The translations under genes and the position numbers were made by a program. Positions 25,990 through 32,874 of a stretch of 39,727 nt of DNA are shown here, in pieces. A model generated the notes under the pieces. It did no database searches and was not told the origin of the DNA. It saw nothing but the letters and a program-made list of their open reading frames with translations. Source of the DNA: a virus; the IMG/VR virus record IMGVR_UViG_3300034167_000354, positions 1-39,727 of that record. One strand, 5' to 3'. How positions within the stretch are numbered: position 1 is the stretch's first letter; each line of letters opens with the position of its first letter.

Positions 25990-27996
25990 ATGACTAATGA
26001 AGAGTTCTTAAGGACAATTTTTCCTAATAATAATAGTTTCCAATGTGACCAACGATTTCGCTACATACCACCATCAAAGCTTAACCCTCATAATAATGCT
26101 CTATACTATGCAATCTGTGCAGTTACAGAACAAACTCGTAAAAATGACAACTTCGTCAGTCTAAACGTATTGGTATGTGATGACGTTGGTACTAAGGCAG
26201 AAACTCCATCTCTTCCGCCATCATATATAATAGAATCAAGTCCAAACAACTTTCAATATGGCTATATACTCACTCAACCAGAAACAGACATCAATAAAGC
26301 TAAAGCACTAATAACACATCTTATAAACTCTGGGTATACAGACGCTGCAGCTCATGGTGTGGTACGTCTAGTACGGTTACCATCTGGTATAAATGGTAAG
26401 AATGAACTAGATAAGAAGGACTTCGAGGTTCATCTAACATACTGGGACCCAGCAACAACGTATTCGTACCAAGAGCTTATTTCATTCTTTGGTACAACTA
26501 GCAAATCGTCGTCGTCATCATATGAGATACCAACACATATACCGAATGGTCAACGTAACTCAGAACTGACCAAGTTATGTGGTTATCTATTTAGTCAAGG
26601 ATACACATTGGTAGAGGTTAGTGCGTTGATGTATACGTATAATAATACATTATGCGAGACACCTATACCACAAGAAGAGCTACAGGCTATCATCAGTTCA
26701 ATAGCGTCAAGAGAGGCTAATAAGTACAAAGACATATTAGATAATATCTATCATATAAGAGCAACTAACACTTGGTTCGACTTCAATGATATGACAGAGT
26801 TATCTGCCGACTCACTTAATATCTCTAACATTGTAGAGTTCCCTGGTACTAAGGATAATAAGCCCAGACTAGCAGCTTGGTTACCGAAGCAGTTAGGATT
26901 CAATCAGGTTGCCGATTATACTTGGTATCCAGTACCTCATCATCAACAGAAACGCACAGTCATGCAAGATGGTAGACGACTACTTAATACATGGCGCGGG
27001 TTTGCTGTTGAGCCATCATCTGGCTCAGTAGAACCATGGTTGGCACATCTAGCTCATGTAATACCAGAGGATGACTATAGACGAGCACTTCTTTGGTGGT
27101 TAGCGTTCACTATACAGTGTCCAGACAAGAGAACATCATGGCAGCCGATCATATTGGGTATATCTGGTGCTGGTAAAGACGCTCTGTTCAGGCCGATCGC
27201 TAATATACTAGGTTCAGCCTATAAGATAATTGGTAATAAAGACATTCAGGGTGACTATGACGATGGTCTATATCAGACCAAGCTCCTACAGATCAGTGAG
27301 GCATCAGGACTGAGAGGTAAGGCGATAGACTTCTATAAGCGCATAACAGCTGCGGAGTCTAGTTCAATGCAGATGCTTAACATAAAATGTAAAGGTAAGG
27401 TGATGCAGCATAATCTATGTAATGTATTGGTAATTACCAACAACATAGATGCTATGAAGTTTACCAAAGATGAACGTAGAGCATTCGTACTACGATCACC
27501 AAGTGTTATGACAGAGCAACAACAAACAGACTACTTTGACAATTGGTTAGATAAAGATGGTGCATCGTACTTATTTGATTATTTACTAAGATATGACTTA
27601 TCAGAATTTAAGCCAGGTATACGACCATACCGCACCAGACACTTCGAGGAATTATTGAACGTGACTCAAAGTGATAATGAGATAAAGATAGAAGAGCTAT
27701 TAGAACCATACTTGATAGCACTACCAGAATTGGTCAGAACAGTGCTTGGTGCAGACGGTGACAGATATGGTACCACCAAGATAATAATTTGGCTACAAGA
27801 TAATGGTTGGGCCAGATGGGACAATAATGAATCGGGCAGACGTATAAAACGTAAGATCAATGGCACCATTTGTACACCTAAATCACGCAATTGGTATATA
27901 AAGAAGGGTTCAGAGTTCGATGGTTCAGCATCAGCTGATATGTGCAGAGAGGTTGAGAGAGTTGAAGAGTTATTTATGAAACGACATAAGTTCTGA
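25990..27996 (+). CDS. Replicative primase-helicase (RepB-like primase + SF3-type helicase)
   Basis: 668 aa. The N-terminal 170 residues (VLVCDDVGTK, then PSYIIESSPNNFQYGYIL, then VRLVRLPSGINGK) match RepB-like primase-polymerase domains. Residues about 185-250 (GQRNSELTKLCGYLFSQG) form the primase C-terminal helical part. The helicase has Walker A GISGAGKD at 390-397, where Asp follows the Lys, and NVLVITNN near 480 as sensor. A winged-helix-like end follows. It should start phage DNA synthesis and unwind DNA. It is the first gene after the early promoters; CAGGA precedes the ATG. Confidence 0.85.
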   Translation: MTNEEFLRTIFPNNNSFQCDQRFRYIPPSKLNPHNNALYYAICAVTEQTRKNDNFVSLNVLVCDDVGTKAETPSLPPSYIIESSPNNFQYGYILTQPETDINKAKALITHLINSGYTDAAAHGVVRLVRLPSGINGKNELDKKDFEVHLTYWDPATTYSYQELISFFGTTSKSSSSSYEIPTHIPNGQRNSELTKLCGYLFSQGYTLVEVSALMYTYNNTLCETPIPQEELQAIISSIASREANKYKDILDNIYHIRATNTWFDFNDMTELSADSLNISNIVEFPGTKDNKPRLAAWLPKQLGFNQVADYTWYPVPHHQQKRTVMQDGRRLLNTWRGFAVEPSSGSVEPWLAHLAHVIPEDDYRRALLWWLAFTIQCPDKRTSWQPIILGISGAGKDALFRPIANILGSAYKIIGNKDIQGDYDDGLYQTKLLQISEASGLRGKAIDFYKRITAAESSSMQMLNIKCKGKVMQHNLCNVLVITNNIDAMKFTKDERRAFVLRSPSVMTEQQQTDYFDNWLDKDGASYLFDYLLRYDLSEFKPGIRPYRTRHFEELLNVTQSDNEIKIEELLEPYLIALPELVRTVLGADGDRYGTTKIIIWLQDNGWARWDNNESGRRIKRKINGTICTPKSRNWYIKKGSEFDGSASADMCREVERVEELFMKRHKF

Positions 27997-29396: not shown

Positions 29397-30152
29397 ATGG
29401 CTAAAAACAAATTTGAATCAAACGAAGAAGTAATTATAGAAGATCGTGAAGAAGTGGCTCTAACTGAAGAACAACATTTATTGATTGCAGCATTGGAATC
29501 AGATGACGTTATTGGTAACCTTTCAGTACTGAAAGATGACGAAGGTACTACTGAAAAGTTGGCCACATTGATTACTGTTTATATTGCATTACAAAATGCA
29601 CTAGGTGATGATGCTGGCGCAACAATTAATGCACGTCAAAACTTGGTTAATTATAAACCTGCTAAAGTTAAGGCTGCTAAGAAACCAAAAGAACCTAAGG
29701 CTCCTAAAGAACCTAAGTTCAATGAACGTAAAGCATTAGCTGAAGCACTAGAAACTGATTCATTGGACACATTGGTTGAAGATGGACGTATTAGCGAAGA
29801 CTTGATGAATGCTATTATTACTTATACTACTTTACGTGATTTAGATTTACCAGAGGCCATCGTTGATGCTGCTAAAGCAACATTGGCATCTTTTGGTCGT
29901 AAAGGTACAACTAGAACACAAAATACAGAAGCTTACTCTGTAGAAGTTAATGGTGTAGTGTATAGTACAAGATCAAAAGCTGTACGTGCACAAGGTTTTG
30001 GTACTGAATTAGTTATGGTAGGCGATAAAGAACGTAAAGCTGAAGATTTAGCTTGGCGCTCAATATCATCACAATTTAACAAGAATGACACTGCAGTTTA
30101 TGACAATGTTACTTATACAAAAGTAACTAAAGTTGAAGATATAGCTGCATAA
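29397..30152 (+). CDS. Abundant early protein of unknown function, 251 aa
   Basis: An acidic helical start (about 1-75), a Lys/Pro/Ala linker (about 90-112, AKKPKEPKAPKEPKF), and a second helical unit (113-165) similar in layout to the first. The C-terminal part holds YSVEVNGVVYSTRSKAVRAQG. A strong AGGAGG site and a promoter-like sequence indicate high expression. The basic linker suggests nucleic-acid or protein binding. The end shares NGxVYx(5)AxRA with the 165 aa cassette protein at 24382. No known family. Confidence 0.65.
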   Translation: MAKNKFESNEEVIIEDREEVALTEEQHLLIAALESDDVIGNLSVLKDDEGTTEKLATLITVYIALQNALGDDAGATINARQNLVNYKPAKVKAAKKPKEPKAPKEPKFNERKALAEALETDSLDTLVEDGRISEDLMNAIITYTTLRDLDLPEAIVDAAKATLASFGRKGTTRTQNTEAYSVEVNGVVYSTRSKAVRAQGFGTELVMVGDKERKAEDLAWRSISSQFNKNDTAVYDNVTYTKVTKVEDIAA

Positions 30153-30164
30153 TAAAATAGAATG

Positions 30165-30197
30165 ACGGTCATGGTGCTCTACCGTAAATGAGCACCA
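30165..30197 (+). other. H-type pseudoknot in the leader of the gene at 30222
   Basis: Stem 1: ACGGT (30165-30169) with ACCGT (30181-30185). Stem 2: TGGTGCTC (30172-30179) with GAGCACCA (30190-30197). The order is a-b-a'-b' with loops of 2, 1 and 4 bases, and both stems are perfect. It is followed by 24 A/T-rich bases to the ATG. Confidence 0.6.
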
Positions 30198-30221
30198 CTA
30201 ATCAATAGATAGAGAACTAAA

Positions 30222-30962
30222 ATGGAAAATGAAATAATAAAAACTAGTGACATAACTGGTTTAGATGCCGAAACTATGGCACTTATCGCTCAAGCAGCGC
30301 AGATTCAAGGTGAAGAAGAAACTTCATCAATACCATTCTTATCTGTCAAAGGTAAGAAGTTTACTCTTGGTGAAGAGAAACTTGGTATTATTCTAAATGT
30401 AGTTATATTGGCTGATGTATTTGACCATGCATACTATGACCGTCCTTATGACCCAGACGTAATATCACCTCCTGCATGTTTTGCAATAAATACATCTAAT
30501 AATGACCTAGCACCAAGTAATACATCACCAACACCACAAGCAGAGAATTGTAGTGTATGTCCTATGAATGAATTTGGTTCATCACAGAATGGTAAAGGTA
30601 AAGCTTGTAGAAATGGTAGACGCTTATTGATCGCTGCAACAACTAATGGTGTGCCAGATTTGGACAATTTAGCTATCATTAATTTAGCACCAACATCATT
30701 AAAAGCTTATGCTAGATATGCTAAAGGATTGGCAACTGTTAAGAAACTACCTATATGGGCAGTTATTACTACATTATCATTTGATGATGACAGCACATGG
30801 CCACAGATAGTGCCTACATTTAATGGCGTATTAGATGGTCAATATATTAATTCTATAGCACCAATGTTACCAGAGATGGCTAATGCAATATCTGTACCTT
30901 ATGATATATCAGGTTACGTACCAATGGAAGCGTCTACGACAAAGAAAAGCAAAATGTCGTAA
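30222..30962 (+). CDS. Conserved-looking phage protein, possible single-stranded DNA-binding, 246 aa
   Basis: The layout YDRPYDPDVISPPACFA, then NCSVCP, then NGKGKACRNGRRLLI (about 70-135) is one I know from uncharacterised phage replication-region proteins. The Cys pair plus nearby Cys could bind metal. The rest is a beta domain. Its place between the primase and polymerase genes and the pseudoknot leader, like that of T4 gene 32, suggest a single-stranded DNA-binding role. Unlike gp32, the tail is basic rather than acidic, so this is tentative. The ribosome site is weak (GAGAA). Confidence 0.55.
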   Translation: MENEIIKTSDITGLDAETMALIAQAAQIQGEEETSSIPFLSVKGKKFTLGEEKLGIILNVVILADVFDHAYYDRPYDPDVISPPACFAINTSNNDLAPSNTSPTPQAENCSVCPMNEFGSSQNGKGKACRNGRRLLIAATTNGVPDLDNLAIINLAPTSLKAYARYAKGLATVKKLPIWAVITTLSFDDDSTWPQIVPTFNGVLDGQYINSIAPMLPEMANAISVPYDISGYVPMEASTTKKSKMS

Positions 30963-31013
30963 CACTTAACAATAGTTAGTCATCCATACCATTTTGGATG
31001 CACAATAATAAAT

Positions 31014-31046
31014 GGGTCATAATCGTAAAGGTTATGGCCCTTTTTT
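31014..31046 (+). terminator. Rho-independent terminator before the DNA polymerase gene
   Basis: GGGTCATAA (31014-31022) pairs with TTATGGCCC (31032-31040) with one G-T pair, followed by six T (31041-31046). The polymerase gene starts 16 bases later with no room for a promoter, so downstream genes depend on readthrough. Confidence 0.8.
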
Positions 31047-31062: not shown

Positions 31063-32874
31063 ATGTACACAATAGATTTTGAAACAGCAGGAATAGTTAA
31101 TGGCAGTAACAAGTCACCAGAGCCATGTGGCTTTGCATTAAAACAAGATGACAAAAAGTCAATATACATATCATGGAACCATACTGGTACTAATGAGTAT
31201 TGTAAATTAGACGCACAAAATATATTAAATGAAGTATGGCTATCTGATGAAAAGATTATGTGCCATAACTCTAAGTTTGACTTAAGAATAGCATTAGAGT
31301 GGTTTGATCTACCAATACCAGAACCATCAAGAATTGTAGATACAATGATAATGGCCTACTTAATTGACGCTCGTGAAGCATCATTAAGTTTAAAACCATT
31401 GGCAGAGAAATATTGTAATATGCCACCAGACGATCAGTCTAGACTAAATAATTGGTTGATAAAGAATGGACACAAGCCTGGTCGTGATATATGTAAAGCA
31501 CCAGCAGACTTAGTTGGTCCTTATGCGTGTTCAGACGTAGACATGACATATGCACTATATAAATACTTAGAACCACATGTAATAAACGGCGAACCTATTG
31601 AGCAAGCGTTCAATAGAGAAATGGCTATATTACCAATTGTGATAGACTTAGAAATGCGAGGTTTAACAATAGAACCTAATATACATAAGTTATTATCTGC
31701 ATTACAAACCAAATTTGATTTATTAGATTTACAATTAACAGCATATGGTAATGGAGAAAAACCTGGCTCAAAAGCTATGTTTAATGTATTACGCAATAAA
31801 GGATTGATTGACGAATCAAAAATACAATACACTGCCAAAGGTAATCCACGCTATGGTAAAGACTTTATAAATGATATAATAGCTGATAAAGAGTTAGTAG
31901 AAATACTGGCTATGCGTGGTAAGCTACAGAAATTTATTGGTACATATTTAAAACCATTTTCAGAATCAGCTAGACTATACAATGGTAAATATTATCCATA
32001 CTATAATCAAACTAGATCAGAGGATGACTTTGGCACAAGAACAGGTAGATTCTCTAGCAATATTCAACAGCTACCAAAAGATGTAGTTGCCAATATAAAT
32101 TTTAAGCATTATGGCTTAGAAGGTGAAGCTATACAAGGTTTACCTGCTATAAGAACTATGATATTGCCAAGTGCCGATAAGATATTAATAAAACGAGATT
32201 TTTCTGGCCAAGAACTAAGAGTAGCAGCTCATTACGCTGAGGGTTCTATTCTTAAAGCTTATCAAGACAATCCTAAAATGGATGTACATGATTTTGTTGA
32301 TAAACTTATACAAGAAAAAACAGGTATGCACTTATCACGAGTACCAGTTAAGACAATTAACTTTTTAAAATTATATGGTGGCGGTCCTAGTGTATTATCA
32401 CAAAGACTTGGTATATCAATGGAACAAGCTAAGATGTTCTTTTCAGCATATGATGAAGCCATACCAGAATTTAAAGGTCTAATGAAAGACATAGAAAATC
32501 TAGCACGATCTGGTAAAAAAATTCGTACTTGGGGAGGCAGATCATATTCAGTAGAACCATCATCACATGACCCAAAAACTGGCAGACGTAGAGAGTTCTA
32601 TTACAAACTTGGTAATATACTTATTCAAGGTTCTTCTGCAGATATGACTAAAGAAGCAATGATAAGATATTATTACCATCCTGATCGCAAAGGTGATTTA
32701 TTAATGACTGTTCATGATGAAATAGTTGTTGAAGTACATCCACAATATAAAGACTCAGAAATGAAAATACTTAAATGGGCTATGGATGACGTACCAGGTT
32801 GGGATGTTCCATTATGCTCAGATGGTGCTACAGGTATTAATTTAGGCAAGATGGAGGCATACGAAGATGAGTAA
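31063..32874 (+). CDS. DNA polymerase, family A, with 3'-5' exonuclease
   Basis: 603 aa replicative polymerase. Exonuclease motifs: DFET (Asp5, Glu7), NSKFD (Asp73) and YACSD (Tyr154, Asp158). Polymerase motif A is RDFSGQELR with Asp379; motif B runs Lys430 to Tyr438 (KTINFLKLYG, Phe at the usual F762 place); motif C is HDE (551-553). All key residues are present and there is no 5' nuclease domain. I chose ATG 31063 because AGGAG precedes it; an in-frame ATG at 31012 lies within the terminator stem and has no ribosome site. Confidence 0.93.
   Translation: MYTIDFETAGIVNGSNKSPEPCGFALKQDDKKSIYISWNHTGTNEYCKLDAQNILNEVWLSDEKIMCHNSKFDLRIALEWFDLPIPEPSRIVDTMIMAYLIDAREASLSLKPLAEKYCNMPPDDQSRLNNWLIKNGHKPGRDICKAPADLVGPYACSDVDMTYALYKYLEPHVINGEPIEQAFNREMAILPIVIDLEMRGLTIEPNIHKLLSALQTKFDLLDLQLTAYGNGEKPGSKAMFNVLRNKGLIDESKIQYTAKGNPRYGKDFINDIIADKELVEILAMRGKLQKFIGTYLKPFSESARLYNGKYYPYYNQTRSEDDFGTRTGRFSSNIQQLPKDVVANINFKHYGLEGEAIQGLPAIRTMILPSADKILIKRDFSGQELRVAAHYAEGSILKAYQDNPKMDVHDFVDKLIQEKTGMHLSRVPVKTINFLKLYGGGPSVLSQRLGISMEQAKMFFSAYDEAIPEFKGLMKDIENLARSGKKIRTWGGRSYSVEPSSHDPKTGRRREFYYKLGNILIQGSSADMTKEAMIRYYYHPDRKGDLLMTVHDEIVVEVHPQYKDSEMKILKWAMDDVPGWDVPLCSDGATGINLGKMEAYEDE

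Follow-up and report, generated by a model that had tools for sequence, protein, structure and literature searches.

Between the genes for a primase and a DNA polymerase, the viral record studied here (IMG/VR record IMGVR_UViG_3300034167_000354, positions 1 to 39,727; this whole stretch of 39,727 nt is called the window) carries a gene for a 246-aa protein. Its leader raises the question of whether an RNA structure in it serves the gene product as an operator. An earlier note, made from the letters alone, had described two perfect interleaved stems (5 and 8 bp, loops of 2, 1 and 4 nt) lying 24 nt before the ATG at 30222, had likened their plan to the leader of T4 gene 32, and had proposed an autoregulated single-stranded DNA-binding protein (SSB). 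Both stems can be read in the sequence as described, and the features of the locus are as follows.

30165 to 30169, + strand: 5' arm of stem S1 (ACGGT), pairing with 30181 to 30185; covaries in relatives
30170 to 30171, + strand: loop L1 (CA), which would span the deep groove of S2; 1 to 3 nt in relatives
30172 to 30179, + strand: 5' arm of stem S2 (TGGTGCTC), pairing with 30190 to 30197; covaries in relatives
30180, + strand: loop L2 (T), the stem-stem junction; 0 to 1 nt in relatives
30181 to 30185, + strand: 3' arm of S1 (ACCGT), pairing with 30165 to 30169
30186 to 30189, + strand: loop L3 (AAAT), which would span the shallow groove of S1; 2 to 6 nt in relatives
30190 to 30197, + strand: 3' arm of S2 (GAGCACCA), pairing with 30172 to 30179
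30198 to 30221, + strand: A-rich leader from the pseudoknot to the start codon, with a weak ribosome site
30222 to 30962, + strand: 246-aa protein with a predicted SSB-like OB-type fold; invariant C86, C110, C113 and C129
31014 to 31040, + strand: intrinsic terminator in the gap between the 246-aa gene and polA, from a terminator scan

When the 80-nt leader was dinucleotide-shuffled 4000 times, no shuffle reached the score of the pseudoknot. Across the entire window, the pseudoknot tied for the top detector score with one site on the opposite strand, so the score alone is not decisive and conservation decides. Nested folding retained the 8-bp hairpin alone, because such programs cannot draw knots. 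Only one weak small hairpin was predicted in 30198 to 30221, and the ribosome site there is weak, as had been noted (AGAGA; GGAG or AGGA in most relatives). A motif starting at 30197, ACWAATMAAT, is common to most of the clade defined below, including L012, whose leader has no pseudoknot.

Homologs of the 246-aa protein were gathered from viral contigs (numbered with L), and the interleaved a-b-a'-b' plan was found in the window, L003 to L011 and L013, with differing letters. The pseudoknot ends 20 to 24 nt before the start codon, the exception being L008 (32 nt). It also occurs in three isolated Acinetobacter phages (Effie, HHU4 and MD-2021a), 36 to 37 nt from the start, ahead of genes whose products (271 aa in Effie) are about 31% identical to the 246-aa protein. 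The arms (capitals) and loops read:

L007: ACGG tac GGTACAT g CCGT ctc ATGTACC
L008: ACCG a GCCTAGG CGGT aa CCTAGGC
L009: ACTC cta GCCACAGT GAGT at ACTGTGGC
L010: AGCC aaa GAGTCTCA GGCT ttgta TGAGACTC
L011: CGGC gta GGGTGGC t GCCG atatgt GCCACCC
L013: TGGC aa GGCACCA GCCG catt TGGTGCC
Effie, HHU4 and MD-2021a: GCGT ta(a) GCCTTAGT ACGC ttaa ACTAAGGC

In seven distinct leaders, all 77 of the compared cells pair, and double-sided changes occur at 11 of 11 pairs; with Effie added, 88 of 88 cells pair and double-sided changes are again seen at 11 of 11 pairs, in what is, at eight distinct leaders, a small sample. When the 3' arms were re-dealt among these eight, pairing was equally good in 4 of 40,320 arrangements for S1 and in 1 of 40,320 for S2. 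Each pseudoknot-bearing leader had its score reached by 0 to 6 of 4000 shuffles. With a detector whose loop ranges were set after several leaders had been inspected, a score of at least 28 was obtained for 7 of 9 distinct leaders of the clade and for 4 of 140 other leaders of the same contigs (Fisher p 4e-8). The window and L005 do not differ over 50 nt around the pseudoknot, against 77% identity in the gene and 62% in the upstream 300 nt. On the strength of this covariation, the H-type pseudoknot predicted in the leader mRNA of the 246-aa gene is shown to be a real element with a conserved place. Pseudoknot-like matches in L015, L023 and L040 were discarded as G-U-rich, at chance level or at other distances.

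The expectation that homologous leaders keep the a-b-a'-b' pairing was thus borne out, with compensatory changes, in all but two members of the clade. In the protein tree, the pseudoknot-bearing contigs, L012 and L014 form one clade of 10 rows (99/95). L012 and L014 (proteins 47-48% identical) have no pseudoknot; the L012 leader retains the tail ACAAATAAATCGGAG, and that of L014 shows, by eye, a promoter-like TTGACA/TATAAT pair and two palindromes. The pseudoknot is also absent from most of the remoter homologs examined, so the protein does not need it. Searches extended from L008, L010, L011, L013, L014 and Effie brought few additional close relatives, and the genome collection yielded distant ones only. 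At the pseudoknot's place in L014 (5680 to 5950), TTGACA and TATAAT are 15 nt apart and the palindromes ATGTGCCGCACAT could form 14 bp between them; transcriptional control may have taken the place of translational control in this contig.

What kind of protein follows this leader? It had been described as lacking an assigned role, and its only matches are indeed PHROGs of unknown function (PHROG 27714); nothing relevant came from sequence searches of Pfam, NCBIfam and PDB. C86, C110xxC113 and C129 are kept in all aligned homologs, and a basic GKGKACRNxRR segment in nearly all. No Pfam match to the gp32 family (PF08804) was found in 24 of the homologs or in five related records, and hhalign detected no relation to gp32 (probability 0.1-0.2%) or to phiC31 gp3. 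Nor does the protein match the bacterial-type SSB profile (PF00436), and it has no acidic C-terminal tip. An acidic C-terminal tail is usual in SSBs; the C-terminus here, KKSKMS, is basic and conserved in close relatives. The protein resembles both families in its predicted OB-type fold and its place in a replication module, but differs from them in the missing profile matches, its own PHROG (27714) and its four-cysteine pattern. Because the sequence test failed, we do not file it as a member of the gp32 family; what we propose is that it functions as gp32 does.

The AlphaFold model (pLDDT 82.6, pTM 0.76; 71 in pLDDT for the L018 homolog) has an OB-type fold, as the earlier note's suggested structure prediction had envisaged. 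RB69 gp32 ranked first among PDB entries in Foldseek (E 0.034, prob 0.84, TM 0.35). VIA-align placed gp32 at Z 6.3 over 149-153 residues, below the value of 8 under which a match may mean a mere common arrangement. Its best match was 9teh_I, from the phiC31 integrase-RDF synapse (Z 7.8, 147 residues), and BRCA2, RPA and MCM OB folds were among others listed below gp32. A search of viral models found the KPP25 homolog as best match and one SSB-named protein further down. These scores, moderate in the case of gp32, support an OB-type nucleic-acid-binding fold in the model; they do not by themselves prove an SSB. Chain I of 9teh is presumably the phiC31 RDF gp3. The gp3 gene (L068, 1099 to 1833) sits in a replication gene cluster, and gp3 may be a repurposed SSB-like OB protein.

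The reported position between primase (25990 to 27996) and DNA polymerase A (31063 to 32874) was confirmed. Relatives preserve the order primase, X, 246-aa gene, polA, PD-(D/E)XK exonuclease, small endonuclease and SNF2-type helicase. Stenotrophomonas phage AXL_3, in whose annotation no SSB is named, has its homolog one gene upstream of DNA polymerase I. No PF00436 SSB was found in six related records, and no other SSB candidate in the window genome. Fold, gene position and the lack of another SSB together make it quite probable that this OB-fold protein serves as the phage SSB. The terminator before polA, whose stem changes in a compensating way between the window, L003 and L007 (by eye), allows the 246-aa gene an expression level of its own.

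As a positive control, the same detector was applied to gene 32 leaders. It recovered the known pseudoknot of a T4-like phage (4 and 7 bp, loops of 1, 0 and 5 nt; TGCC a GCTATGA GGTA aagtg TCATAGC; 33 nt from the start; score reached by 5 of 300 shuffles) and one in Klebsiella phage KP185 (GTCC a GTTGCAA GGAC ccatg TTGCAAC; 1 of 300), the two lying 30-33 nt from the start. No convincing pseudoknot appeared in seven more distant gp32 leaders. The T4 operator consists of a pseudoknot for nucleation and an open A+U-rich segment that carries cooperative gp32 binding (PMC535899, PMC3014915), and RB49 has no gene 32 pseudoknot (PMC535899). As in T4, T2 and RB69 gene 32, an H-type pseudoknot precedes a gene whose OB-fold product contains a cysteine-rich segment, the stems measure 4-5 and 7-8 bp, L1 and L2 are very short, and open A+U-rich RNA extends over the ribosome site; in T4-like phages, too, the pseudoknot is missing in some relatives. 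In contrast, the pseudoknot here mostly lies 20-24 nt from the start (about 33 in T4), the open leader is shorter, the proteins have no detectable sequence homology, the C-terminus is basic, and the genome is one of about 40 kb with an SU10-type portal instead of that of a T4-like myovirus. The UUAAA/UAAA repeats of T4 are absent from the window leader, though it is open and A-rich. The parallel to gp32 holds for the plan of the leader, for which the same detector recovers the T4-type element, and for the predicted OB-type fold, but not for gp32 sequence homology, an acidic C-terminal tail or UUAAA repeats. An octamer, CAACTGTT, stands just 3' of the pseudoknot in the T4-like, KP185, Effie and HHU4 leaders (L058, L066, L070, L071); the Effie-type proteins are not related to gp32 by sequence. 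The pseudoknot operator of E. coli rpsO acts by ribosome entrapment. This translational operator is bound by its gene product, S15 (PMC3014915), which differs in being a ribosomal protein.

Taken as a whole, the best explanation is that an SSB-like protein represses its own translation through this pseudoknot, to which we give a probability of roughly 55%. The leader mRNA would fold into the H-type pseudoknot, with some 20 nt of open, A-rich RNA behind it that includes the ribosome site; the OB-fold protein, with a probable zinc site, would coat single-stranded DNA from the neighbouring primase/polymerase module. Once free protein exceeded the available single-stranded DNA it would, by analogy with T4 gp32, nucleate on the pseudoknot; spreading from there over the open leader, again as gp32 does, it would block the ribosome and thereby repress its own translation. 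That the free protein acts in this way, coating the open leader and the ribosome site, has in our view somewhat better than even odds. We infer the binding of single-stranded DNA, zinc and RNA, and the repression itself.

The pseudoknot might instead be a real RNA element with another role, namely protecting the mRNA from decay after processing, keeping the ribosome site open or being the target of another phage or host protein. A structure kept while its sequence changes fits any structural role, many homologs have no pseudoknot, and L012 has kept the A-rich tail without it. However, the pseudoknot stands just before the gene in two branches that have about 31% protein identity and otherwise little in common in their leaders, which ties it to the protein, and in geometry it agrees with the only SSB operator of this type that is known; we consider such a role rather unlikely. 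It is more doubtful still that the protein, possibly still autoregulated, has an OB fold and binds nucleic acid but is not an SSB, being for example a recombination-directionality or replication-loading factor. VIA-align gave its highest Z (7.8) to the chain taken as RDF gp3, whose gene also lies in a replication cluster, and the C-terminus is basic; against this, gp32 came first in Foldseek, gp3 shows no sequence relation, the scanned window proteins included no recognized integrase and no other SSB was found.

A reading of S2 as a DNA operator or transcription terminator, with S1 as a chance pairing, appears highly improbable. S2 is by itself an 8-bp inverted repeat, and L014 has its two palindromes beside a promoter at the same place. 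Yet no T-run follows S2, the terminator scan made no call there, no S2 sequence motif is common to the phages, S1 covaries in eight leaders while interleaved with S2, and L011 and L013 have U-G pairs that fit RNA of the + strand only. Stimulation of stop-codon readthrough or frameshifting in the upstream 251-aa gene, whose stop codon (30150 to 30152) lies 12 nt before the start of the pseudoknot, is scarcely credible: the stop is a double TAATAA, a further in-frame TAG at 30210 precedes the ATG, and the distance from stop to pseudoknot varies among relatives.

Self-repression of an SSB through a pseudoknot is already known in T4-like phages, and according to PMC535899 no answer is known to the question whether any SSB besides T4 gp32 acts as an mRNA-specific repressor. 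Rfam gave nothing at gathering score in the window or in the T4-like and related loci, and its two weak matches in the leader region were far below the cut-offs. A covarying pseudoknot before a sequence-unrelated OB-fold family was not found in Rfam or in the limited literature searched. We tentatively raise the possibility, which we doubt more than we believe, that SSB genes acquired pseudoknot-based self-repression on two or more occasions, once in T4-like phages and once in this OB-fold family. The pseudoknot would then be a general solution to recognition for SSBs that have to distinguish their own mRNA from every other single strand. This second, sequence-unrelated family with a covarying leader pseudoknot includes isolated Acinetobacter phages and hence is testable, and the unannotated protein family of many phages (PHROG 27714) gains a likely function.

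The gap between the 246-aa gene and polA holds a second pseudoknot-like stretch at 30981 to 31015 (CATCCA ta CCATTT TGGATG cacaataat AAATGG). It overlaps the 5' arm of the terminator, and its pairing letters are invariant in L003 to L007, so it shows no covariation. After the SSB-like gene of L008, L009 and L010, a TATAAT-like box directly abuts the terminator hairpin, and therefore a transcript from there would begin inside the hairpin.
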